DNA from: Gammaproteobacteria bacterium
GTDB lineage: Bacteria > Pseudomonadota > Gammaproteobacteria > Arenicellales > UBA868
Reading direction: 5' to 3'
Length of the DNA stretch: 43,119 bases
NCBI GenBank assembly: GCA_011523045.1
Contig: WTHR01000130.1
Coordinates: forward strand, 1 to 43,119
Shown here: piece after piece, positions 9,324-23,921 of the stretch
Numbering within the stretch: position 1 is the first letter of the stretch
How the letters are laid out: every line of letters starts with the position of its first letter
Program-made: the position numbers and the translations under genes
The notes under the pieces: generated by a model
Told to the model about the DNA's origin: nothing
The model's database searches: none
Seen by the model: only the letters and a program-made list of their open reading frames with translations

Positions 9324-10130
9324 TCATACATCTTTTTGCCAGCTGTACTTTTTAACCAGAACCCCAACGATCGTGTCTAAAGTGAACCCGATGATGCCGA
9401 TAACGACCACCATCGCGGTAAGGTGGTCATAGGCCAGTGTTTCGCGTGCGTCCTTGATCGCATATCCCAAGCCAGAGCTCACCCCAAGCAACTCTGCGGG
9501 CACAAGCACCACCCAGGCGATTCCCAACGCGAGACGAATGCCGGTGAAAATATCAAAAGCAATCGCTGGAAATATGACCTGCGCGAGCATTTTGTGAAAG
9601 TTGGCGCCGAGGTTTTTAGACACCTTGAACCAGGCAGGATCCACTTTTTTGAGTCCCGCTGCCGTCGCATAGATCACCGGCCATATGGCGGCTACAGCGA
9701 TGAGGAAGATGATCGCCTGATCCCATTTAGGAAATACGAACACGACGATGGGCATCCACGATAGAGGGCTCACCATCCGCAACAACTGGAACGGCTCGTT
9801 GGTCACCTGCTCGGTGATCTTGCTGAGACCAATTGCTATTCCGATTGGCACCCCAATGAGAATAGCAAGGAAAAGTCCGATCAGAAGCCGATAACCGCTC
9901 GCAATAACGTGCTCAGCTATGTAGCCAGTTTCTATCAAACCTGGCACCGCTTTGAGTGTCGGAACAAGTCCGAACTTCACAAAGCTGCTCGTGGCTGGAT
10001 TGGCTTCCAGGAACCAACCGCCTATTGCCCACAGGCCGATGAGAATCGCAAAACCCACCGCCGGATACGCAATACGATCGATCAGCCAGGTCTTAACGAA
10101 GCTTTGAGATTCTTGGGCGTTTTCGATCAT
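9324..10130 (-). CDS. ABC transporter permease, NrtB/SsuC/TauC type (second of two)
   Basis: 268 aa with about six membrane helices and the binding-protein-dependent permease fold. The EAA-loop region reads VDPAWFKVSKNLGANFHKML. The family imports anions such as nitrate, bicarbonate, cyanate and sulfonates. It is similar over its length to the permease encoded just upstream (18-base gap), so the membrane channel may be a heterodimer. The operon context (ATPase, two permeases, divergent CynR-like regulator, cyanase and thiocyanate hydrolase nearby) points to cyanate or thiocyanate as substrate; this is inferred. Confidence 0.9.
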   Translation of the reverse strand: MIENAQESQSFVKTWLIDRIAYPAVGFAILIGLWAIGGWFLEANPATSSFVKFGLVPTLKAVPGLIETGYIAEHVIASGYRLLIGLFLAILIGVPIGIAIGLSKITEQVTNEPFQLLRMVSPLSWMPIVVFVFPKWDQAIIFLIAVAAIWPVIYATAAGLKKVDPAWFKVSKNLGANFHKMLAQVIFPAIAFDIFTGIRLALGIAWVVLVPAELLGVSSGLGYAIKDARETLAYDHLTAMVVVIGIIGFTLDTIVGVLVKKYSWQKDV

Positions 10131-10148
10131 TGGTTCTTCTGAATGAAA

Positions 10149-10967
10149 TCAGTTACGGTGCCAGCTGAAGCGTTTAATCAGGGCCTGGCAGATGCCGTCC
10201 ATCAAAAAGCCGATGATGCCGATAGCAAGAATCGTGACCGCAAGGTCGGCATACATCAAGTTCTCTCGTGAGTCTTGAATGGTGTAACCCAGACCTGATG
10301 TGATGCCGAGAAATTCTGCAGGGACGATAACAATCCACGCGACACCCAGCGCGAGACGGATACCCGTCATCACATCGAAGGCGATCGCCGGGAGGATAAT
10401 TTCCTTGAGGATATCCCACCAACTTGCCCCAAGGTTTCGAGCCACCTTAAACCAGGCCCGATCCAACTTGGCGAGGCCTGCTGCGGTAGCGAAGGCCACC
10501 GGCCAGACCGCAGCCATCGAGATCAGGAAGATAATTGCCTGATCCCAAGTTGGCATCGCAATCACCGCGATCGGCTCCCAAGACAACGGGCTCACCATGC
10601 GCAGGAACTGAAACGGGGTATTGCTGAGTTTGCGAAATACGTTGCTTCTCCCCATCAGAATACCCACGGGGATACCCGTAACGATCGCGAGCAGCAAACC
10701 TATGCCCAGGCGATACCCACTCGCCTGGCTGGCGTCGAGCAAGGTGCCTGACTGAACCATGTAAGGCACTGCATCAATGGTGGGGAACGGACCGAAATCC
10801 GCGAAGCTCATGGTGGCCGGGTTGCTCTCCAACAACCACCCGCCAAACCACCACAGGGCAAACAAGATTCCAAGACCGATCGCGCTGAAGAGCACTCGGC
10901 GCAGGACCATGACGATCAAATCGACCGCCACTGAGGATCTCTGAGGAGTACCGATTTCAGCAGCCAT
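10149..10967 (-). CDS. ABC transporter permease, NrtB/SsuC/TauC type (first of two)
   Basis: 272 aa with about six membrane helices. The EAA loop reads LDRAWFKVARNLGASWWDIL, and LGVAWIVIVPAEFLGITSGL is typical of NrtB/SsuC proteins. Many residues match the following permease (for example the shared segment RMVSPLSW and the ESNPAT/EANPAT pair), so the two arose by duplication. Most members of this transporter family have one permease gene and a homodimeric channel, so two adjacent, diverged permeases are notable. Confidence 0.9.
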   Translation of the reverse strand: MAAEIGTPQRSSVAVDLIVMVLRRVLFSAIGLGILFALWWFGGWLLESNPATMSFADFGPFPTIDAVPYMVQSGTLLDASQASGYRLGIGLLLAIVTGIPVGILMGRSNVFRKLSNTPFQFLRMVSPLSWEPIAVIAMPTWDQAIIFLISMAAVWPVAFATAAGLAKLDRAWFKVARNLGASWWDILKEIILPAIAFDVMTGIRLALGVAWIVIVPAEFLGITSGLGYTIQDSRENLMYADLAVTILAIGIIGFLMDGICQALIKRFSWHRN

Positions 10968-11005
10968 CGTAAGTAACGCTACAAATCAAGAAAATACGGG
11001 CGCGA

Positions 11006-11773
11006 TTAGTGGGTCGCGGCGGAGGCCTGTCGGAAGGTCTCCATAAGATGTCCGCGAATCTTCTGAACCTCTGGATCCTGCGCAGTTCTTTCTTCCGGCA
11101 AATCGACCATGATCTCTTCTTTAATCTTGCCGGGAGATCCCGCCATAATTACCGCTCGATCGGCCATCAGTACCGCCTCGTCAATACTGTGAGTCACAAT
11201 CACAAGGTTGATACCCATGCTTTTGGCAATCGACCGCACGTCTTTTTGCAAAGAGGCCCGGGTAAATGCGTCAAGCGCGGAGAAGGGCTCGTCGAGAAGT
11301 AACATCTCGGGCTCCATAACGAGAGATCTCGCCAGCGCCACTCGCTGCTGCTGCCCGCCGGACAGATCCTGCACGTTGGACTCCGCATATTCTTCCAGAT
11401 CCACCAGCTTGATTGTCTTTTCGACACGTTCGCGGATCTTGTCTTCGGCAAAATTGGCAAACTTGAGTCCAATGCCCACGTTCTGACTGACCTGCATCCA
11501 CGGGAAAAGGTGGGGCGCCTGAAACATCATGACCCACTTGGGTGAAGGCTCTTTTACTTCAACGTTATTGAGTCGGATACTGCCGGCTGTGGGAGCGAGC
11601 AATCCGGCCATGATATGGAGCAGCGTAGACTTCCCGCAACCGGAACGGCCAATGATTGCCAACACTTCTCCCGGTTTGGACTCAAGATTGACCTTGTCAA
11701 AGGTCACCGGTCCTCGAGATGAATAGCTATGGGTTAGATCCTGTACGGAGATCTGCACACCGCTTCTGTCCAT
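11006..11773 (-). CDS. ABC transporter ATPase, NrtD/SsuB/TauB type
   Basis: 255 aa with all nucleotide-binding motifs: Walker A GRSGCGKST (42-50), Q-loop Q85, signature LSGGQ (137-141), Walker B LLLDEP (158-163) and switch H195. The length and the MFQAPHLFPWMQV segment fit the nitrate/cyanate/taurine importer subfamily. First gene of the import operon, divergent from the LysR regulator at 12172. No binding-protein gene is in this operon; the likely partner is the NrtA-like protein at 20208-21617. Confidence 0.93.
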   Translation of the reverse strand: MDRSGVQISVQDLTHSYSSRGPVTFDKVNLESKPGEVLAIIGRSGCGKSTLLHIMAGLLAPTAGSIRLNNVEVKEPSPKWVMMFQAPHLFPWMQVSQNVGIGLKFANFAEDKIRERVEKTIKLVDLEEYAESNVQDLSGGQQQRVALARSLVMEPEMLLLDEPFSALDAFTRASLQKDVRSIAKSMGINLVIVTHSIDEAVLMADRAVIMAGSPGKIKEEIMVDLPEERTAQDPEVQKIRGHLMETFRQASAATH

Positions 11774-11835: not shown

Positions 11836-12087
11836 CGCTTTGCTTTAAAACAGTAAAACAACGGCCGCGCTTCAGTGCTGACCAAATAGTGGCAGAACTT
11901 CAACTGAATGGGCTTATTTGCTTTATATTTTGACTAATGTTTACTTTATAGAAAAATTAGATCCAATAAGTATTAACTATTAAGCGTTTTTTCTTCTCAA
12001 AAACTAGTATAAGAAGTAACTTGTTTGGATAGTGCATTCAATAAGAAAAGCCACACATTAAACTATCTTCTGTTTATGGTTGAGACG

Positions 12088-12124
12088 ATCTCGTTATCCG
12101 ATGAATAGGAATTTCCTATTGGTT
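12088..12124 (+). promoter_or_regulatory. candidate LysR (CynR-like) operator upstream of lysR
   Basis: The element ATCTCGTTATCC-N5-ATAGGAA-N6-ATTGGTT matches the element at 23754-23790 upstream of scnB at 25 of 37 positions without gaps. The first 12 bases are identical. It lies 48 bases before the lysR start and overlaps a perfect 17-base inverted repeat (12104-12120). It is the strongest candidate for the binding site of the regulator encoded at 12172. Confidence 0.6.
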
Positions 12125-12171: not shown

Positions 12172-13110
12172 ATGAACCGCAATACTATTTTTCCAAGGTC
12201 CCTTAAGTACCTCCTCGCGGTCGCAGAGTATTCGAGCTTTACCCGGGCCGCAGAGTCTCTGTTTGTCTCTCAGCCGGCTCTATCCCAACAGATTAAACAA
12301 CTGGAGGAGCAGGTCGGGGTACAACTGCTGGAGCGCTCCGGCCGTAACGTGCACCTCACTGATGCGGGTGATCTCTACGTCCGGCATGTCGAGCGGGCAC
12401 TTGCAGAGATCAATGCTGCCTCAGCCGCACTCGATGATCTCAGCGACCTTTCGCGAGGTCACGTGTCCCTTGCTATGACACCCATCACTGACTACCTCAC
12501 AGCGAGTCTGATCCAGGAGTTTGTCAGTCAACATCCGAATATCTCGATCGACATCAAAGAGATGACCCAACACGAGGTCGAGGAAGCTGTGCTTCAAGAT
12601 CAAGTTAGCGTGGGCGTCATGTTCAGTAACGAAACGTTGCTCACCACGGGGCGTGATGAGCTTGAGGCCATGACGCTGAATGCTGACGCGCTGGTCCTCG
12701 CGTCGAGCAAAAATGCCGCTCCAGAAAAAACTGATCTCGATCAGAACTCGTCGACGGAGTTGATGAAACAACCTCTGGCGCTGCTGAACAACCGCTTTGA
12801 GATGCGACGGCAGATCGACGCCTACTTCACCACTCACAATCTAGACCCGAGAGTCACTCTGGAAGCCAACTCCCTGGGATTCCTGATCGAGATGGTCAAG
12901 TACGGGGGGCTTCGCACCATACTCCCCGAATCCATCGTCGCATCAATGGAGGATCTGATTTCTATCCCCGTAGAACCTGCTCTACCCGCCCACACTGCTA
13001 CGATGATTATCCGCAAGGCAGCGTACCGCAGCCGAGCCACTGATGCGTTTTTGCGCCTCGCCCTGCTCTGGGATTTGCCGAGTGTATTGGGGCACCGGCG
13101 CGGATCCTAG
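12172..13110 (+). CDS. LysR-family transcriptional regulator, CynR-like
   Basis: 312 aa. The N-terminal winged helix-turn-helix (about residues 9-66) contains FTRAAESLFVSQPALSQQIK and LEEQVGVQLLERSGRNVHLT. An effector-binding periplasmic-protein-like domain (about 90-300) follows, as in CynR, CysB and Cbl. It is divergent from the ABC importer and close to cynS, the classic position for a CynR-type activator that senses cyanate. The effector here could be cyanate or thiocyanate. The 37-bp element shared with the scnB promoter suggests that it also controls thiocyanate hydrolase. Confidence 0.88.
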   Translation: MNRNTIFPRSLKYLLAVAEYSSFTRAAESLFVSQPALSQQIKQLEEQVGVQLLERSGRNVHLTDAGDLYVRHVERALAEINAASAALDDLSDLSRGHVSLAMTPITDYLTASLIQEFVSQHPNISIDIKEMTQHEVEEAVLQDQVSVGVMFSNETLLTTGRDELEAMTLNADALVLASSKNAAPEKTDLDQNSSTELMKQPLALLNNRFEMRRQIDAYFTTHNLDPRVTLEANSLGFLIEMVKYGGLRTILPESIVASMEDLISIPVEPALPAHTATMIIRKAAYRSRATDAFLRLALLWDLPSVLGHRRGS

Positions 13111-14412: not shown

Positions 14413-14853
14413 TTACCAGGCGCTGTATTGCAGGTACTTGCCGCTCAAACTCAAGTGGACACGATCTCCTTTTTCGCTTTTCTCACGGGAAACGGTCATA
14501 TTGAAATCGACGGCTGACATGATCCCATCACCGAACTCCTCGTGGATAAGTTCCTTGATCGTTTCCCCATAGACTCCGACCATCTCGTATAGCCGGTAAA
14601 TTGCGGGGTCGGTCGGCACCGTTTGCTCCCACTGCTTATTGGGGTACTGCTGCAGTGCTGTTGATACAGTGCCCGGCAAACCCAGGCAGGAGGCAACCGC
14701 GTCCGCATCCGATTTTTCAAGATGGTTCATGCCAAGACAGGCTGACACCACGAACTCCGTCGACATCGATGTCGTTTCGGCAATTTCCCGCCAGGACAGA
14801 CCCTTCTCGAGTTTTGCCGTTCTAATGTGATCCTTCATCTCTTCTTTCTTCAT
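14413..14853 (-). CDS. cynS: cyanase (cyanate hydratase)
   Basis: 146 aa against 156 in E. coli CynS. The N-terminal helical domain (LSWREIAETTSMSTEFVVSA) and the C-terminal catalytic domain are both complete. The three catalytic residues align at R87, E90 and S113 (in YRLYEM and DGIMSAVDF), equal to R96, E99 and S122 in E. coli. The enzyme decamer converts cyanate plus bicarbonate to ammonia and CO2. An AGGAC ribosome binding site precedes the ATG. It is probably co-transcribed with the CLC gene. It detoxifies cyanate and supplies nitrogen. Confidence 0.97.
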   Translation of the reverse strand: MKKEEMKDHIRTAKLEKGLSWREIAETTSMSTEFVVSACLGMNHLEKSDADAVASCLGLPGTVSTALQQYPNKQWEQTVPTDPAIYRLYEMVGVYGETIKELIHEEFGDGIMSAVDFNMTVSREKSEKGDRVHLSLSGKYLQYSAW

Positions 14854-15870: not shown

Positions 15871-16039
15871 CTCAACTGAGAACGACTTTTATCGAGGCGT
15901 TGCGGATCGGGGATCCGATTTTCTTACCCCATCGATAATCAAATCGTATTGGGAGTTCAGGTCTTGGCAATCTCTCGCGATACTCTCCGTGATACTCTAT
16001 TTTCTGCTTATCACATTGAACCCCGAGGGAGCCATCATC

Positions 16040-16510
16040 ATGAAACCGACGGATCTCAAGCCGCCATTTGATCTTGCGATAGCGACCCAAAAAGTAAGGA
16101 TGGCAGAGAACGCCTGGAATACGCGAGATCCTGAGAAAGTCAGCCTGGCCTACACAGAAAACAGTGTCTGGCGGAATCGGTCCGAGCATTTTCAGGGTCG
16201 AGCAGCCATCGTTGAATTTCTCACCCGCAAGTGGCAACGGGAACTGGATTACCGGTTAATCAAGGAACTTTGGGCTTTTTCCGATAACCGGATCGGGGTC
16301 CGTTTTCAGTATGAGTGGCATGATGAAAATGGACAGTGGAATCGATCGTACGGAAATGAACTCTGGGAATTCTCTGACGAGGGCCTGATGCGAAGACGCG
16401 AGGCCAGTATCAATGACATCAGCATCAGCGAGAATGATCGGCGGTTTCTGTGGACAGCTCCCGGACATCGCCCTGACGATCATCCGGGGCTGATACCGTC
16501 TCCTGAATAG
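16040..16510 (+). CDS. DUF1348 / NTF2-like (SnoaL-fold) protein
   Basis: 156 aa from ATG 16040, chosen because GAGGGA lies nine bases upstream; the frame is open from 15830 but the extra N-terminus is not typical. The protein is the small cone-shaped NTF2-like fold. Signatures include [37 protein letters not shown] and a Trp-rich [15 protein letters not shown]1348 members are common in proteobacteria and have no firm function. It is the only plus-strand gene between the sulfur genes and the MurB-like gene. It may be a lodger in the island or a small enzyme or ligand-binding protein of the pathway. Confidence 0.8.
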
Positions 16511-16542: not shown

Positions 16543-16956
16543 TCAGTTTTTTGATGCGCCTTCCGGATTCATTCCCTTGACGAGTCTGGCGAGCAAATAG
16601 ATAGCATCCTGAACATCAGGATCCTTGGCCATTCTCAGCAGTCCACCGTATCCGCCCGTCTTTGGATTCTTCGCGTTTACAGCGTCCATCATCGAACCCG
16701 AACGAAGCGCGTCCGCAAGACACTCGAGACTGTCCTGCGCCGCCGGTTGATTCAAAGCCTGGAGCAGGGACATCAGGCCCTGATTACGCGTTAAGCGATC
16801 CATCAGGATCATGCCTTCGCCCATCGCGCTGGCAAGACGAGTGACAATGTCATCGGTCATCGCGTCTTGTGCGGCAGAGATCGCCGCGGCGAGTTCGATC
16901 AGTTTTGCAAGGTCCTGGGGTTGACCCTCAGAGACCGGTGTTTCTGGACTAGTCAT
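16543..16956 (-). CDS. DUF1641 domain protein
   Basis: 137 aa. The C-terminal half carries the DUF1641 signature: GLMSLLQALNQPAAQDSLE, then a GGYGGLLRMAKDPDVQDAIY segment and LLARLVKGM. DUF1641 proteins are often encoded next to sulfide:quinone-reductase-type flavoproteins and formate dehydrogenase genes; they have no defined activity. Here it follows the flavoprotein gene by 45 bases and ends the dsrE-tusA-sqr-DUF1641 unit. A helper or membrane-docking role for the flavoprotein is a guess from context. Confidence 0.85.
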   Translation of the reverse strand: MTSPETPVSEGQPQDLAKLIELAAAISAAQDAMTDDIVTRLASAMGEGMILMDRLTRNQGLMSLLQALNQPAAQDSLECLADALRSGSMMDAVNAKNPKTGGYGGLLRMAKDPDVQDAIYLLARLVKGMNPEGASKN

Positions 16957-17001
16957 GTTGATTTTCAGATTTAGAGTGCGTTCAGAACGTCCCGGCCGCG
17001 A

Positions 17002-18135
17002 TCAGAGCAGGCCGCGCGCAGATGACCAATACCACTGGTTATAGGACATTTTCAGCATGTGCATGGACTTGGTCGGAGCCTTGATCTCTGGAGGATCAAT
17101 GTAATTGAAGCAGGCATTCGTTGCACGATCCTGATCCGCCTCAATAAAGCAATAAACCTTGCCATCATATTCGCGGGTTGCGGACCCTGTCCGAAAGATC
17201 GACGCGATATTCTCGCCGACCACTTCGCTCTGAAAGTGGGCCGTAGAACCCGTCTTGCTGATCGGCAAATTGCTGGTATCACCCACTACGTAGACGTTGT
17301 CGTGTCCTTCCATCTGCAACGAATAGCGGTCGGTCGGAATCCACCCGCCCTCTCCAAGATTGTTCTCCTCGATCACTTTCATGCCCCGATGCGGAGGAAC
17401 GGCAACGAGAAGATCAAACTCTTTTTCTGTGCCCTCTTCACTGTGCACAATTCGATTCTCAACGTCCACCTCCTTCATGTTAAAGAAGGTTTCATAGTCG
17501 ACTTCCATTCTTTCAAATTCGGGAACCGCCCAGGTGGCAATGTTCTCAATATTATGGATACGGGCGATCGGATAGGTGTATTTCAACTCCACCTTGTCTC
17601 TGATTCCTCGCTTTTCAAAAAATTCGTGCAGCATGAATGTGATCTCGATCGGGGCAATCGGACACTTATGCGGAACCCCCACCACAACCGCCACCTTACC
17701 GCCTTCAAAATCGCGCAGGCGTTTGAACATTCGGGTTGCGCCTTCGCGCGTATAAGGCGTTTCTGACGCCTCGGCAAGGCCCGGCACCTCATCGTAGACC
17801 GCCTCACACCCCGTGGCGATCACCAACATGTCGTAGTCATGGACCACGCCGCCTTTCGTCCTGACTTTATTCTGGGCCAGTTCAAATTCCTCAACCGGAT
17901 CTACAAAAAACCGGATGCCCGGTTCCAGCAAACTGGCCTGATCGCGAACGATGTCGTTCATTGCCATCTTGCCGAATGCGACATAAAGCAGCCCGGGTTG
18001 ATACCAGTGCTGATCGGTCGCCGAAAGCATGGTGATTTCGACCTTTCCGTCTCTTACCTCTCGAGCAAGCCGCCTCGCCACGTTATTGGCCACGATCGTG
18101 CCGCCCATGCCCCCACCAACAAATAAGATCTTCAT
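17002..18135 (-). CDS. sulfide:quinone oxidoreductase-type flavoprotein
   Basis: 377 aa. N-terminal FAD Rossmann motif LFVGGGMGGTIVANNVA (4-20), second motif LVIATGCEA with C110, PHKCPIAPIEITFMLHEFF with C158 at the position of a redox-active SQR cysteine, and C-terminal VGDTSNLPISKTGSTAHFQS (284-303). A further cysteine pair candidate is C329 or C342. SQR oxidises sulfide to polysulfur and reduces quinone at the membrane. The tusA and dsrE genes directly upstream fit a sulfur-handling role. The precise SQR type is not settled, and activity on another sulfur donor is possible. Confidence 0.88.
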   Translation of the reverse strand: MKILFVGGGMGGTIVANNVARRLAREVRDGKVEITMLSATDQHWYQPGLLYVAFGKMAMNDIVRDQASLLEPGIRFFVDPVEEFELAQNKVRTKGGVVHDYDMLVIATGCEAVYDEVPGLAEASETPYTREGATRMFKRLRDFEGGKVAVVVGVPHKCPIAPIEITFMLHEFFEKRGIRDKVELKYTYPIARIHNIENIATWAVPEFERMEVDYETFFNMKEVDVENRIVHSEEGTEKEFDLLVAVPPHRGMKVIEENNLGEGGWIPTDRYSLQMEGHDNVYVVGDTSNLPISKTGSTAHFQSEVVGENIASIFRTGSATREYDGKVYCFIEADQDRATNACFNYIDPPEIKAPTKSMHMLKMSYNQWYWSSARGLL

Positions 18136-18188
18136 TAACCTGACTCCACAATCAAAACGCTAAAAAGCGCTCAGGCGCCTCTTGCGCC

Positions 18189-18419
18189 TTACTTGAGTTT
18201 TTTGACAACGATATGCCACACGTCATCAATCTTTTCATTGCTGACCAGTTCATGCCCTACCTTGGCGATCCATTGCGGTACGTCGTTGGCAGAACCGTCA
18301 TCAGTAGACAGCAGTTCCATCTCATCGCCAACCTCTGCCCGCTTCATAAAGGAGATCAACTCCATCAACGGGCCTGGGCAAAACGTGTTTCTTGCATCAA
18401 CAACTTTCATTTCGGACAT
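18189..18419 (-). CDS. tusA: TusA-family sulfur carrier protein
   Basis: 76 aa from ATG 18419, preceded by AGGAG seven bases upstream; two TTG codons just before it are not needed. The active-site motif is C14-P-G-P (NTFCPGPL). The domain is the usual TusA/SirA alpha-beta fold. TusA carries persulfide sulfur between enzymes. Paired with a DsrE2-like gene upstream and an SQR-type gene downstream, it most likely takes sulfur arising from thiocyanate or sulfide breakdown rather than serving tRNA thiolation. Confidence 0.92.
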   Translation of the reverse strand: MSEMKVVDARNTFCPGPLMELISFMKRAEVGDEMELLSTDDGSANDVPQWIAKVGHELVSNEKIDDVWHIVVKKLK

Positions 18420-18458
18420 CAACAATCTCCTGTTTTGTAGAGCGCGGTCTCAACAAGG

Positions 18459-18851
18459 TTAAAAGGACAGCAGCCTGCCATCCTCGGCGTCAGACAGAAA
18501 AGCGGTGAGTCCGGTTGCTGGGCCAAACTCAAGCGTCAGATCATCCGGGGTGATCTTCATCAGGTCCAAGGCCATGGAACAGGCCAGCAGCTTGGCGTCA
18601 CCCAGATCAGCGGCTTGCTCAAACAGCTTTCTGAAAGCAGGCACTCCTTCTGTCTCGATCAGACGACCAAACTCACCCTCTTCAGGCGCCGCGAGCTCGG
18701 CATTGTCCTTGGTGAAATACTGGAGTGCGTTCATGGAAAAGAAAACGGTGACGTCATCCCCGCTCGCTGCCGCAACCGATGCAACCATGGAAGCCATTTG
18801 AAGTTTCTCGAGCGTACCCGAAACACAGACTATCGAAAGCTTGTTGGACAT
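18459..18851 (-). CDS. DsrE2-like (COG2210-type) sulfurtransferase family protein
   Basis: 130 aa. The segment KLLACSMALDLMKI (about 88-100) places conserved C91 as in DsrE2/COG2210 proteins; another cysteine is C9. DsrE-family proteins bind persulfide sulfur and exchange it with TusA. The gene is followed by tusA after 39 bases. The rhd-tusA-dsrE2 theme is common in sulfur oxidisers, but no rhodanese gene is seen here. Confidence 0.87.
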   Translation of the reverse strand: MSNKLSIVCVSGTLEKLQMASMVASVAAASGDDVTVFFSMNALQYFTKDNAELAAPEEGEFGRLIETEGVPAFRKLFEQAADLGDAKLLACSMALDLMKITPDDLTLEFGPATGLTAFLSDAEDGRLLSF

Positions 18852-19147
18852 TACGTTACCTAATTATTTAAAACAGAGCATACGTTGGGCCAGTGAAATT
18901 CACGTACTTCCCGCTGTCTTAAGCCCACCACGGACGGAGTGCTTGCAGAACACAGTCTACGAGACCCGAGGCGATTCGGGCGTGCGATTGCGAGACGAAA
19001 AACCGATAAGCGGTATAGGAAAAATCAATCGCAATTCGGGGCTGCACACGTTTCCCTAATACCGAATGGGTCGTCTCCCGGACTTTGTTACCACAAGAGA
19101 AGCACGAGCTAAGGGGTCTAAGGCCGCGCAGAAATGGATTTTGGTCT
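18852..19147 (-). promoter_or_regulatory. promoter region of the dsrE-tusA-sqr unit
   Basis: This 296-base gap separates cbtA from dsrE. It has no gene. At 19015-19031 the sequence ATAGGAAAAATCAATCG matches 15 of 17 bases of the scnB-promoter element (23771-23787), in the same orientation relative to the downstream gene. The rest shows no clear signals. Confidence 0.45.
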
Positions 19148-19894
19148 CTAGGCGTCTTTCGGTAAAAACCGATGCAATCCTAAGCCAGTGCAGCCACCGA
19201 TGACCAGCCACATGATGAGCGAGCTGATCCCCGTAGCGACAAGAAACGCACCAGACAGCTCAGACAGCTGCGTCGCCACTTCAGCGGTATGGCCCGCATA
19301 CAGATCATCGGCTTGAGGCGCTCCGACAATATGCGGCACCACAAGTAACACAGCTGCGCCTACCCAGCGCCAGTTTGTCTTTAGTGTGTGAGCGAGGAAA
19401 AGCCCTATCCCCGTGCACAAGACTGTTGAGGTCCACCAAAACTGGCGAGATTCAAGCGCTGCCCCGGCGACTCCGGGCAACTGGGGAAGGATCCCGAGAG
19501 AGGGTGCTGCAAAAAACGCGATAAATCCGCCCAGCCCCCAAACAAGGCCTGAGGCGAAACTCATCCTGGCCTTGCCAAACTTTATTGAGGCCGCGGCCCC
19601 AAAAGCCACCAAAAGCAGAGCATAGCCTATTGCAGTGAGCACATTGGACAGCATCGTAAAGAGTATCCTCTCAAGTCCGTCCTCAGGACCCCACTCTTCA
19701 TGATCATGATCGTGATCGTGGCTGTGTCCCGAATGATCTGATTCCTCAGACCCTGCTACTTCGACTTTCTGGCTCTCAAGCTGCTCTGCTGCCGTGATGA
19801 TCGGTATGACCTGCCAGCGCTGAACCAGGCTGAGGGCAAGGCCCCCAGCCAGACCAGCGAGCAGCGCAATAACAACAATTCGGCGAAACAACAT
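19148..19894 (-). CDS. cbtA: CbtA, cobalt transporter subunit
   Basis: 248 aa with about five to six membrane helices. After the first helix comes a His/Asp-rich loop DHSGHSHDHDHDHEE (about residues 53-67), a likely metal-collecting site. LWGLGGFIAFFAAPSLGI-like and NWRWVGAAVLLVVPHIVGAP segments match CbtA proteins. CbtAB is usually predicted for cobalt uptake in B12 pathways; here the evident client is the cobalt enzyme thiocyanate hydrolase encoded upstream in the same direction. It follows cbtB closely (gap 47 bases). Confidence 0.93.
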   Translation of the reverse strand: MLFRRIVVIALLAGLAGGLALSLVQRWQVIPIITAAEQLESQKVEVAGSEESDHSGHSHDHDHDHEEWGPEDGLERILFTMLSNVLTAIGYALLLVAFGAAASIKFGKARMSFASGLVWGLGGFIAFFAAPSLGILPQLPGVAGAALESRQFWWTSTVLCTGIGLFLAHTLKTNWRWVGAAVLLVVPHIVGAPQADDLYAGHTAEVATQLSELSGAFLVATGISSLIMWLVIGGCTGLGLHRFLPKDA

Positions 19895-19941
19895 TAACGG
19901 GATCGCCGCCTACTTTTGATTTAGCCTTAGTACTAGCAGCT

Positions 19942-20127
19942 TTAGTGGCAAGGAAAGCCCTGAGAATGGCGCATATCATGTGCCGCGTTGTGTACGGCGG
20001 AAGACTGCGCGAAAGCCGCGGCGAACAGAATCGTTGCACCCAGCGCGAACGCCGCGATCAGCTGCAGCCCCTTGCTGGCCAGAATAGGTGTGGACTGGAT
20101 TTGTTCTTGAATTGCTTGGTTTGACAT
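19942..20127 (-). CDS. cbtB: CbtB, cobalt transporter accessory subunit
   Basis: 61 aa. One membrane helix (about 20-41) is followed by the hallmark C-terminal metal motif HNAAHDMRHSQGFPCH (46-61), where His and Cys side chains should bind cobalt. CbtB always pairs with CbtA. It lies 80 bases after the solute-binding-protein gene, across a strong hairpin. Confidence 0.95.
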   Translation of the reverse strand: MSNQAIQEQIQSTPILASKGLQLIAAFALGATILFAAAFAQSSAVHNAAHDMRHSQGFPCH

Positions 20128-20167
20128 AACTTTTCTCTCCTAAGTTGCAAATTTATCTGTGAGTGTC

Positions 20168-20187
20168 CCCGGGTCGAACGACCCGGG
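20168..20187 (-). terminator. perfect GC-rich hairpin between the binding-protein gene and cbtB
   Basis: CCCGGGTCG and CGACCCGGG (20168-20176, 20179-20187) form a 9-bp stem with a two-base centre, or a slightly shorter stem with a tetraloop. No T-tract follows on the minus strand (it reads GACACTCAC). It is therefore more likely a mRNA-stabilising or partial termination element that lowers cbtBA relative to the upstream genes. Confidence 0.5.
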
Positions 20188-20207
20188 TATCTCATTTTCT
20201 AAGGGAT

Positions 20208-21617
20208 TTAGATCTCCAGAATCTCTTCGCGCTCGAAAGGATTGCCTCCCTGGGGCACGCTTGGATCATTTTTCCATGACGGATTGGCCATGAGTGCGTT
20301 CTTGACATACTCATACTGTACGAGATCATTGATCACGAACTCCGGATCCAGGGTATCCAGGAAGGTCCTGTCGCCGGTCACCAATGTCTCATTCTTCAGT
20401 TCATTGACCACCAGTCGGGTGGCCGACGGATAAGGCCATGCTTGGAAGTCGATGCGATTCTGACCCCACTCGGTATGACGGATCGCAGCAGGATTGTTGT
20501 AATACGCCGGATCGTAGAACATCATGGCACGCTCAACCACTTTGCTCGGGAAGGGGTAGTACTTCTTACCTTCACGCGACAGCAGCTGGGCAACCTCTTT
20601 TCGGTTGGATCCGGTGTAAAGCTGTGCCTTGACTACGGCATTGTGTACACCCTGTGCCCACGCGGCCCGTTCCGGATCCATTGCGTCGTCTTCATGCATC
20701 ACCACAACACAGCAGGGATGCCCCTTCCACACGTCACCGGTAAATCGGAGCACTTTGCCGCCGGCTTTGATCTCACCGAGCGCATTGAAAGGCTCAGCAA
20801 CACAGTAGCCATCGATCTTCTTAGCGGCCAGTGCAGGCGGCATATCAGGCGGCGCGAGCACTTGGAAGTTACATTCATTAGGCGCCAGAGCCGCGTCCTG
20901 CGCTCGGATCACCGGGGTGATTCCTGCCTCCTTCATGATCTTCTGGGAGACAATGTTATGGATTGAATACCAATACGGAACCGCAAACTGCTTTCCGCCG
21001 AAGTCTGCGGGCGTTTTGATCTCCGGGTTCACCACGATTGCCGAACCATTGCTGTGGTCCCAGGCCGTGATCTTCACGGGGAATTTATTGTTGTACCGCA
21101 TCCAGACTGGAATCGGGATGAGCATGTGCGTCAGATTGAACTTGTGGGCGGCGAATGCCTCCACCAGTGGTGACCAACCCCGAATCAGTGTCGGGCGTTT
21201 GGATTCAATTCCCTCTTCCTTGAAGAAGCCAAGCTCATGCGCGACCAACAGGGCTGCCGCATCAGTAATTGGGATGTAGCAGATGTTGACAACGGGATCG
21301 AATGCTTTTTTACCGAAAGCCGGCATGCTGCCCAGCCCAAGGCCGGCACCGGCCAGGGCTGCGCCCGTCTGCAGCACCGACCGTCGGCTTATCCCTGTCC
21401 CGAGAAACCCACCAAACAGAGGGTCCGAATTAATCTTGAGAAACGGATCGTCAATCTGATCTCCGAAACTTTTGGCGTTCAGCGGCAGGCCGTTCTCATC
21501 GACTGGGCCCCCGTCTATGAACTGAGCTTCTTCCTCATCGAGAATATCATCTGCGATTGCCTGCGACTTTGTTTTCGCGGCCAGCAGTTTTTCTTCCTGC
21601 GTTAACTGTTTTTTCAT
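20208..21617 (-). CDS. NrtA/CmpA-type ABC solute-binding protein with Tat signal
   Basis: 469 aa from ATG 21617, chosen because GGAGGAGG is just upstream (the frame is open to 21638). The Tat motif SRRSVLQTGAALAGAGLGLG begins at residue 77, after an unusually long polar N-terminal stretch. The mature part starts with the NrtA-like region VNICYIPITDAAALLVAHEL and has the two-lobe binding fold. Related proteins capture nitrate, bicarbonate or cyanate in the periplasm. It lies between thiocyanate hydrolase and cobalt-transport genes, so thiocyanate or cyanate is the likely ligand. It probably feeds the permeases at 9324-10967. Confidence 0.9.
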   Translation of the reverse strand: MKKQLTQEEKLLAAKTKSQAIADDILDEEEAQFIDGGPVDENGLPLNAKSFGDQIDDPFLKINSDPLFGGFLGTGISRRSVLQTGAALAGAGLGLGSMPAFGKKAFDPVVNICYIPITDAAALLVAHELGFFKEEGIESKRPTLIRGWSPLVEAFAAHKFNLTHMLIPIPVWMRYNNKFPVKITAWDHSNGSAIVVNPEIKTPADFGGKQFAVPYWYSIHNIVSQKIMKEAGITPVIRAQDAALAPNECNFQVLAPPDMPPALAAKKIDGYCVAEPFNALGEIKAGGKVLRFTGDVWKGHPCCVVVMHEDDAMDPERAAWAQGVHNAVVKAQLYTGSNRKEVAQLLSREGKKYYPFPSKVVERAMMFYDPAYYNNPAAIRHTEWGQNRIDFQAWPYPSATRLVVNELKNETLVTGDRTFLDTLDPEFVINDLVQYEYVKNALMANPSWKNDPSVPQGGNPFEREEILEI

Positions 21618-21766
21618 GTCTTCGCTTTCCTCCTCCATTTTGTCTGCAGAGCTTTAACCCTTTAAATGTCTGTACAAATCTCCTTAACTCCTTACAAATG
21701 TTTACTGATACTTGTTGCTGGCAATCTTGCCTGCTGGCCCCCAGGGCTCAAAGAACTGTGCTCTCA

Positions 21767-22102
21767 CTACGCCGCGTTGAGCCTCTCGGTAACGGTCTTC
21801 AGGTGTTTCTCAAGGTCTTCTTCAGTAATGATGCCCCGAAGGATCATTGAGTGCGCGAGAGCCAACACCTGCCGCTCTGGATGGGGGATGTGCTTATAAA
21901 GCTCATCCACCAACTCGTCCTCTTCATCCCGTCGTTCGAGAGATGGCAAAACGCACGATCCCTCGTTAAGCACCTCACAGGTGCTTTCCAGAAAAACGCG
22001 CCAGGGCGGATCCGGGTTTTCGACCCCGTACTGCTCACAGAGGTCGCTCCAGACCCTGCCTTCTTTGCCGATCTTTTCCAGTAAAGGGATGGACTTGGTC
22101 AC
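21767..22102 (-). CDS. thiocyanate hydrolase maturation protein, P15K/nitrile-hydratase-activator-like
   Basis: 111 aa. The C-terminal part HPERQVLALAHSMILRGI plus TEEDLEKHL matches the helical N-terminal region of nitrile hydratase beta subunits and their activators. Two cysteines (C23 and C43) are present. In Thiobacillus thioparus the gene after scnC encodes P15K, which delivers cobalt to the gamma subunit. Position (nine bases after scnC), length and homology agree. It should act in the cytoplasm as a cobalt chaperone or subunit-exchange partner. Confidence 0.85.
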   Translation of the reverse strand: MTKSIPLLEKIGKEGRVWSDLCEQYGVENPDPPWRVFLESTCEVLNEGSCVLPSLERRDEEDELVDELYKHIPHPERQVLALAHSMILRGIITEEDLEKHLKTVTERLNAA

Positions 22103-22111
22103 AAGGGGTTC

Positions 22112-22819
22112 CTAATGGCCGTAAGGATGGATTGCGGGGATCACCGGTCTCTTGTCATCCGCCTTACGATCCGCGCGGGGCATCGCCACGCCAATCAGAC
22201 AGTCGCGGGTAACAATTTCGGCAAGCTGATCCTCGGTCCAGCCGTCGGTGCCTTCTGGCCGCACCGGCATAACCACGTAACGGGTCTTCTGATTCGAATC
22301 AGCCACGCGAATCTCAACGTCTTCAGGCAACTGCAGGCCGAATTCAGACAACACCTGCCGCGGCCAGCGCACCATCCGGCGTCGATAGTTGGGCGTACGG
22401 TACCACTCGGGAGATTGACCCAGAATCGGCCTCGGATAGCAGGAACACAGCGTGCAGACCACGACATGCTTCAACTTGGGCGTATCAACCAAAATCCGTG
22501 GGTTGCAGTAGTCACTGGGGGTGCCAAAGTTCGAGGGCATGCTGGTAATCCAGTTGATACCTACCTCCAAACTCGCTTTGACGGGGTCATCAATACACAA
22601 CTGCTTGTAATCTTCATCTAGCCAGGCTTTGGCGACGAGTCTTGCAGCAGGGGTAGGACCCAATGTGTGCATATATTCCGTCCACTCGTTGTGATCGGCT
22701 TGTGTAAACAGTCCTTTCTCAATGCATAACTCGCGGACTGCGACTTCCAGCGCCTCAAAGTCGCTGACCTCATCCACCATGGGCGCGGCTTTGTGATCAT
22801 GATCATGTGAATTTGACAT
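22112..22819 (-). CDS. scnC: thiocyanate hydrolase gamma subunit (cobalt-binding)
   Basis: 235 aa, matching the known gamma subunit (243 aa). The cobalt claw motif is C122-T-L-C125-S-C127 followed by YPR. In this motif class the second and third cysteines are oxidised to sulfinate and sulfenate, and the CTLC form indicates cobalt rather than iron. The rest aligns with nitrile hydratase alpha subunits. The enzyme hydrolyses SCN- to carbonyl sulfide and ammonia. The N-terminal HDHDH tract may bind metal. It follows scnA by 49 bases. Confidence 0.96.
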   Translation of the reverse strand: MSNSHDHDHKAAPMVDEVSDFEALEVAVRELCIEKGLFTQADHNEWTEYMHTLGPTPAARLVAKAWLDEDYKQLCIDDPVKASLEVGINWITSMPSNFGTPSDYCNPRILVDTPKLKHVVVCTLCSCYPRPILGQSPEWYRTPNYRRRMVRWPRQVLSEFGLQLPEDVEIRVADSNQKTRYVVMPVRPEGTDGWTEDQLAEIVTRDCLIGVAMPRADRKADDKRPVIPAIHPYGH

Positions 22820-22868
22820 GCCGTTTTCCTCTTTTCATGTCGTGAGTGTGAAATACCTTCGGATTGAC

Positions 22869-23222
22869 TCAGAGCGCCTCGAGCCAACGCTCGGAGAGTT
22901 CTGTTTCAAGCGTATCGGCCTCGAACTTCTTGGGATAATCTGGCCACAGGTCAGTCTGCTTGAAGAGCAGGCTGTAGAACCATTCTGGGCTGTCGGTGTT
23001 ATCCCACGCTTCGTCTTCTGCCGGCGGGCTTTCGTATACGAGTTTTACAACTGTCGCTTCCGCCTCACGAAGATACATCTGCGAGCGGGTATAGAAGATA
23101 TCGGGCAGATTGCGGATCCGAACCCGGTCCCCCACCTTAAATTTCGCGGGAGGTGCCTCACCTTTGAAGCACTGCGGATCCCCAACGTTCGTTGCTTTTT
23201 CTACATGGTGGCTGCTGCTCAT
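22869..23222 (-). CDS. scnA: thiocyanate hydrolase alpha subunit
   Basis: 117 aa. The SH3-like barrel starts with KFKVGDRVRIRNLPD, as in the C-terminal half of nitrile hydratase beta subunits. In thiocyanate hydrolase the nitrile-hydratase beta chain is split into two proteins, ScnB (N-terminal half) and ScnA (C-terminal half). That split is exactly what is seen here and distinguishes the enzyme from nitrile hydratase. The start overlaps the scnB stop by four bases (23219-23222). Confidence 0.94.
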   Translation of the reverse strand: MSSSHHVEKATNVGDPQCFKGEAPPAKFKVGDRVRIRNLPDIFYTRSQMYLREAEATVVKLVYESPPAEDEAWDNTDSPEWFYSLLFKQTDLWPDYPKKFEADTLETELSERWLEAL

Positions 23223-23686
23223 AAGTCATGACCCTTTGCATCGTAAAGAAGACCGTCCTGTTTGTGGGCGCGCTGTTTGACCTCTTCGATCTTGTCGATC
23301 AGTTCGGTCAGTTTGACGTGCTGCTTATCCACGAGGATCAGCGCGATCGTCATCAACCAGCGGCCGTAGTAAGGCAAGCCAAGATAGATTGTCTGTCCGA
23401 CGTCGACATTCTGGCGGCGGCGGCGCTCCTCAGCATTCCAAACCCCTCGCCAGGCAAGCACCTCGCAAGTCACAAAGGTGTTGTGTTCCCAGATCTCTTC
23501 CTCTTTCTCTTCCCAGGTAATCGGAACGTCTGCCTCACCTCCGACATCGTGGGACGCGCGGGTGTAAGCGCGGAAATGGGCGTTATCGATCAAATCGCCG
23601 GTGGGGGCGTGCTGCGGCTGATGTAGCGCCGGCTGCAACTGGCCGACGATATTGAGGTGCCGCATGATTTTTTCGCGGTTAGACAT
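23219..23686 (-). CDS. scnB: thiocyanate hydrolase beta subunit
   Basis: 155 aa (about 157 in Thiobacillus). It matches the N-terminal half of nitrile hydratase beta, with WEEKEEEIWEHNTFVTCEVL and LPYYGRWLMTIALILVDKQ. It forms part of the active-site wall around the cobalt site of ScnC. It is the first gene of the scnB-scnA-scnC-activator operon, the gene order known for this enzyme. A 235-base regulatory region precedes it. Confidence 0.93.
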   Translation of the reverse strand: MSNREKIMRHLNIVGQLQPALHQPQHAPTGDLIDNAHFRAYTRASHDVGGEADVPITWEEKEEEIWEHNTFVTCEVLAWRGVWNAEERRRRQNVDVGQTIYLGLPYYGRWLMTIALILVDKQHVKLTELIDKIEEVKQRAHKQDGLLYDAKGHDL

Positions 23687-23921
23687 TAGTTGTACGCCTC
23701 TTAATTAATGAGTCGAAACAACATACTCTTGGCGTAAAGAATTCTCCAAGACTATCTCGTTATCCATCAGATAAGAAAAATCAATTGGCTTATCCAGCAA
23801 GATAATTTGGCCCTTAAAGTATTGATTTGTGGAAGAAAAAGGCTGGTATGAGACAAAACCTTTTTGGAAGAGATGGATTAGCCCGGTATCGACTGACAGG
23901 GCCGAAATGGCAGAACTATTA
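23687..23921 (-). promoter_or_regulatory. scn operon promoter with LysR-type operator sites
   Basis: This AT-rich interval carries, at 23754-23790, the element shared with the lysR promoter. It contains TTATC-N5-GATAA (23760-23774), a classical LysR T-N11-A dyad. A second dyad TTATC-N6-GATAA lies at 23790-23805. Two tandem sites spaced by about three helical turns suit a LysR tetramer. The sites are about 70-115 bases before the scnB start codon. Confidence 0.65.

Follow-up and report, generated by a model that had tools for sequence, protein, structure and literature searches.

Three copies of a 41-bp element lie in the 43,119-nucleotide stretch of DNA that was analysed (the window), at a cynR-type regulator gene, at the thiocyanate hydrolase (scn) operon and at a group of sulfur genes, and one LysR-type protein, a relative of CynR, very probably binds all three. 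The element reads TCCAAGAC-N7-TTAT-N7-ATA(A/G)G-N5-CTAT, and the 41-bp block between cynR and scnB in outgroup gamma- and betaproteobacteria reads TCCAAGAC-N7-TTAT-N7-ATAGG-N5-CTAT. An earlier note on this DNA had proposed one LysR regulon coupling import, autoregulation and thiocyanate hydrolase; an independent matrix, the match to an E. coli operator and orthologous promoters support this proposal, and sequence comparison likewise supports its extension to a third operon, dsrE-tusA-sqr-DUF1641. With three sites for one regulator, thiocyanate import, thiocyanate breakdown and sulfur disposal are probably switched on together in this marine bacterium.

The element and the genes beside it

The following genes of the window are concerned:

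12172-13110, plus strand: cynR-type LysR regulator, 312 amino acids; NCBIfam CynR 309.7 bits against a cut-off of 277
9324-11773, minus strand: ABC importer of the nitrate/taurine type (ATPase and two permeases)
19148-23686, minus strand: scnB-scnA-scnC (thiocyanate hydrolase), scnX, substrate-binding protein, cbtB, cbtA
16543-18851, minus strand: dsrE, tusA, sulfide:quinone oxidoreductase-like gene (sqr), DUF1641
14413-14853, minus strand: cynS (cyanase), Pfam Cyanate_lyase

The genes scnB, scnA and scnC occupy 23686-22112 on the minus strand. ScnC matched TIGR03887 (365 bits), the beta-type domains NHase_beta_N and NHase_beta_C were found in ScnB and ScnA, respectively, and matches to NMT1_2, CbtA and CbtB also fell within the operon. 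With scnA, scnB and scnC accompanied by a transporter and sulfur genes, the region is a thiocyanate hydrolase cluster of the COS-pathway type. Directly after scnC, in nearly every relative, stands scnX (21767-22102, 111 amino acids), for which Pfam and NCBIfam gave no match.

The element, its parts and the promoter predicted beside it are located as follows:

12079-12119, plus strand: CynR-type operator between cynR (plus) and the ABC operon (minus), GTTGAGACGATCTCGTTATCCGATGAATAGGAATTTCCTAT; top matrix score
12105-12119, plus strand: inverted repeat 1 (IR1) at cynR, primary site, T-N11-A, ATAGGAATTTCCTAT; invariant in five species
12083-12097, plus strand: IR2 at cynR, degenerate second repeat, AGACGATCTCGTTAT; invariant in five species
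23745-23785, plus strand: CynR-type operator of the scn operon, predicted to act on the minus-strand genes, TCCAAGACTATCTCGTTATCCATCAGATAAGAAAAATCAAT; scored by the independent matrix
23771-23785, plus strand: IR1 at scn, imperfect T-N11-A, ATAAGAAAAATCAAT; invariant in six species
23749-23763, plus strand: IR2 at scn, adjoining the predicted -35 box, AGACTATCTCGTTAT; 14 of 15 positions invariant in six species
18989-19029, plus strand: third operator, upstream of dsrE-tusA-sqr-DUF1641, TGCGAGACGAAAAACCGATAAGCGGTATAGGAAAAATCAAT; missed in the earlier note
15913-15953, minus strand: weak fourth candidate, upstream of a DUF1348 gene (16040-16510, plus strand); score 5.4 in the window
23720-23749, minus strand: predicted scn promoter with -35 TTGGAG (23749-23744), 18-bp spacer and -10 TATGTT (23725-23720)

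Each copy holds two repeats, IR1 of the form ATA(A/G)-N7-C(T/A)AT and IR2 of the form AGAC-N8-(T/G)AT, whose centres are 22 bp apart. A 15-bp T-N11-A inverted repeat is present as ATAGGAATTTCCTAT at cynR and in imperfect form at scn and dsrE. The cynR IR1 corresponds to the ATAA-n7-TTAT repeat of E. coli (PMC5002191).

The letters on which the earlier proposal was built were verified: the 12-mer ATCTCGTTATCC stands in identical copies at 12088-12099 and 23754-23765, the scn and lysR/ABC copies share 25 of 37 positions without a gap, and the 17-base perfect inverted repeat AATAGGAATTTCCTATT is present at 12104-12120. The extent of 37 bp had to be redrawn, since the conserved element starts 9 bases before and ends 5 bases before the reported limits, which leaves ATTGG(C/T)T, then counted as part of it, mostly in the flank. 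The sequence TTATC-N5-GATAA, taken for the LysR site of the scn copy, does occur at 23760-23774 but was rejected as such: it runs from the right arm of IR2 across the N7 linker into the left arm of IR1, bridging two half-sites, and none of the 7 inner bases is invariant. The second dyad (23790-23805) also exists, but was dismissed as a functional element for want of conservation among relatives.

In the intergenic region between cynR and the ABC genes, further blocks bearing ATAAG (about 12005-12018 and 12040-12048) were conserved in five species; they may represent additional half-sites or else the promoter of the ABC genes.

Conservation and independent detection of the element

Taken alone, the match between the two copies is only modestly above chance. 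When the two intergenic regions (cynR/ABC and scn) were dinucleotide-shuffled 400 times, 25 of 37 identities were reached in 10 shuffles and a common 12-mer arose in 11; moreover, the window contains 171 direct and 167 inverted 12-mer pairs. These figures are what would speak for a chance similarity of two AT-rich promoters. With the related genomes added, however, the match is far beyond chance.

In the scn operator 33 of 41 positions were invariant across six species, compared with 6/60 and 5/60 positions in its flanks. The corresponding values were 31/41 in five species for the cynR operator (flanks 11/60 and 6/60) and 21/41 in six species for the dsrE operator (flanks 14/60 and 4/60), and the 7-bp linker was free to vary across species. 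The relatives of the window's genus used here were metagenome-assembled genomes.

A matrix was built from 17 cynR-scnB intergenic regions, all belonging to other families and none to the window's own. In the window it gave the three sites 14.8-16.3 bits, well below the outgroup sites (mostly 30-50 bits), and everything else at most 3.3 bits; with the base composition of the window, the three sites scored 17.5-19.1 and the next 5.4. Six genomes in which cynR lies apart from scnB (L008, L022, L027, L031, L033 and L037) were held out, and copies of 27-48 bits were found at both promoters in all six. Conservation that ends at the element edges, together with an independent matrix that scores both sites, yields the third and succeeds on held-out genomes, refutes chance similarity, the probability of which we regard as negligible.

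The motif search over the genome that the earlier note had suggested pointed the same way: the consensus of the three sites has exact matches nowhere else in the 2.72 Mb. Since the sites themselves supplied the pattern, this is a measure of rarity and not of discovery. Allowing two mismatches gave 23 matches in the genome, close to the 16 of a reversed-pattern control, and the single one-mismatch match elsewhere (C213) was discarded as lying inside an open frame. Likewise, the one further exact copy of ATCTCGTTATCC in the genome was rejected as an operator, being located inside an enoyl-CoA-hydratase-like reading frame. A sequence-only covariance model (R1) reported the cynR site alone in the organism's own genome and was too weak for whole genomes. 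In distant intergenic regions an initial motif search of a simple kind came back empty, since only the exact letters of the window counted as a match.

In gamma- and betaproteobacteria cynR usually diverges from scnB with the element between them; of 25 further genomes with this divergent layout, 23 had 18 or more of the 22 fixed letters. Among the Thiodiazotropha-like symbionts (L009-L020), additional strong operators were seen several kb downstream of cynR. For the weak candidate at 15913-15953, counterparts scored up to 14.3 in relatives, and it is possibly a fourth regulon member. This operator-like block, between murB and the DUF1348 gene, is conserved in L005, L006 and L007, in contrast to its drifting flanks. 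The matrix scan revealed no strong operator of its own for cynS in the window, where none of the three strong sites adjoins it; in several relatives cynS carries one.

That the element is real and read by another protein, for example a different LysR-type regulator, with cynR adjacent only by accident, must be weighed too. T-N11-A sites are used by many LysR-type proteins, and CynR binding in the window is itself predicted from sequence. Nevertheless, in 848 kb of control loci around canonical CynR genes the element was found at 41 of 42 cynR promoters and only sporadically elsewhere (one site above 14.7 bits, next to cynS in L056, and five weaker sites above 10 bits). In addition, the regulator co-occurs with scn: cynR was present in 6 of the 33 genomes of the window's family, all of which belong to the 7 that carry scn (p = 6e-6). 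Finally, the cynR-cynT region of E. coli K-12, bound by CynR itself as reported in PMC5002191, scored 21.7 bits with the matrix, and altogether this makes a different reader very unlikely. An origin of the three copies as recent duplicates, through a mobile or recombinational repeat and without selection as operators, would fit the fact that the 5' and 3' halves are common to different pairs among the three. Against this, it is mainly the contact positions that match, whereas the 7-bp linker and the flanks differ; the copies have stayed in position across species, and outgroups carry theirs at the same genes. Recent duplication, extremely unlikely in our estimate, is refuted by the orthologous copies conserved in sister species.

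Predicted mode of control and inducer

Recognition of the element by a CynR-family regulator is, as a whole model, highly probable on the comparative evidence. The following account of how the regulator binds, what induces it, where transcripts start, in which direction it acts and whether it governs the ABC importer is inferred. The regulator encoded at 12172-13110 would recognise an operator of two 15-bp inverted repeats, a strong distal IR1 and a weak proximal IR2 reaching the -35 box, and a tetramer (two dimers side by side) would occupy both. Upon binding of an inducer, be it cyanate, thiocyanate or some related ion, the tetramer would shift on IR2 and let RNA polymerase start scnBAC and the dsrE-tusA-sqr operon, and probably also the ABC importer, while its binding at the promoter of cynR probably keeps that gene's own expression in check.

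Relative to the predicted scn promoter, the IR1 centre would lie near -65 and that of IR2 near -43, with IR2 reaching the predicted -35 box. An arrangement with the second repeat reaching -35 is typical of LysR-type activation. At equal distance, relatives also show a -35/-10-like pattern; no convincing -35/-10 pair was found at the third site (18989-19029). In many outgroup cynR-scnB regions the element ends within the cynR start codon, whose AT supplies its final two letters. This overlap (CTATG), with the distance fixed, was seen in L021, L023, L024, L026, L029, L030, L032, L036 and others, and suggests direct self-repression. The least secure link of the predicted regulon is the ABC importer, control of which is uncertain because some 305 bp separate the element at 12079-12119 from the ATPase start and because in a related genus (G029) no recognisable element was found between cynR and the ABC genes.

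The DNA-binding domain of the window's regulator is identical to that of E. coli CynR at 40 of 58 positions. As for the inducer, the protein might be mainly a cyanate sensor that adds scn to cyanate detoxification and not a thiocyanate sensor, which is a variant of the CynR-operator model that differs in the inducer only. It belongs to the CynR family, cynS lies in the same cluster and in relatives often has its own operator, and E. coli CynR is reported to respond to cyanate (PMC5002191). On the other hand, the scn-linked regulators form a separate group, divided from canonical CynRs by one branch with 100/100 support, and canonical CynR loci had cynS nearby in 38 of 42 cases and scn in none of the 42. 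The threonine at E. coli position 200, found in 42/42 canonical CynRs, is replaced by leucine in 34 of 40 scn-linked regulators and by methionine in the window. We place the probability of cyanate sensing somewhat below even. The corresponding residue 211 of the window's protein is a candidate for inducer specificity, and a change of inducer is to be read as a lead, not a result.

Relation to known systems and break-up of the operon

The closest known counterpart is the cynR-cynTSX operator of E. coli, where CynR protects a 60-bp cynR-cynT region from DNase I and where repeats of the ATAA-n7-TTAT kind at -66 and -44 and an IR3 at -34 are described (work of Lamblin and Fuchs, as reported in PMC5002191). 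The two systems share the regulator family, the divergent layout, the 15-bp repeats of this kind, their 22-bp spacing and the second repeat at the -35 region (PMC5002191). Inspection by eye revealed no ATAA-n7-TTAT-like repeat at the position of IR3 (-34), where a conserved CCAAGAC overlaps the -35 box. Unlike in E. coli, the targets in the window are thiocyanate hydrolase, importer and sulfur genes, the operator is repeated at three transcription units, the left arm of IR2 is AGAC and the regulator falls into a scn-linked group of its own.

The COS-pathway clusters of Thiobacillus thioparus and Thioalkalivibrio thiocyanodenitrificans resemble the window in holding scnABC, a NitT/TauT-type transporter, DsrE, SQR and cyanase in one region, and the portion of their description that was available names neither an scn regulator nor an operator (PMC5328954); compared with those clusters as described there, the window's genus has the long operon divided into three units. 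A thiocyanate dehydrogenase operon of Thioalkalivibrio also degrades thiocyanate and has its own candidate regulator, but that one consists of a histidine kinase and a sigma-54 activator and serves a different enzyme (PMC5744179). In the open-access literature searched, no regulator of thiocyanate hydrolase was found.

In most relatives the genes form one long run, scn-ABC-(cbt)-dsrE-tusA-sqr-DUF1641, with one element. G029, a different genus of the same family, has the ATPase and permease genes next to cynR, with dsrE-tusA-sqr still following scn, and in the window's genus there are three units with an element at each. The order of this break-up is deduced from outgroups, without a dated tree. 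We tentatively propose, at a confidence a little short of one half, that a CynR subgroup ('ScnR') was re-tuned from cyanate to thiocyanate as a dedicated master switch of the COS pathway in gamma- and betaproteobacteria, each of the three pieces into which an ancestral single operon broke in this marine genus having kept or gained an operator.

Altogether, the data name a candidate regulator of thiocyanate hydrolase, its operator and a predicted local regulon. The predicted pairing of regulator and operator holds across gamma- and betaproteobacterial thiocyanate degraders, and the window offers a clear case in which operator copies accompany the break-up of an operon.
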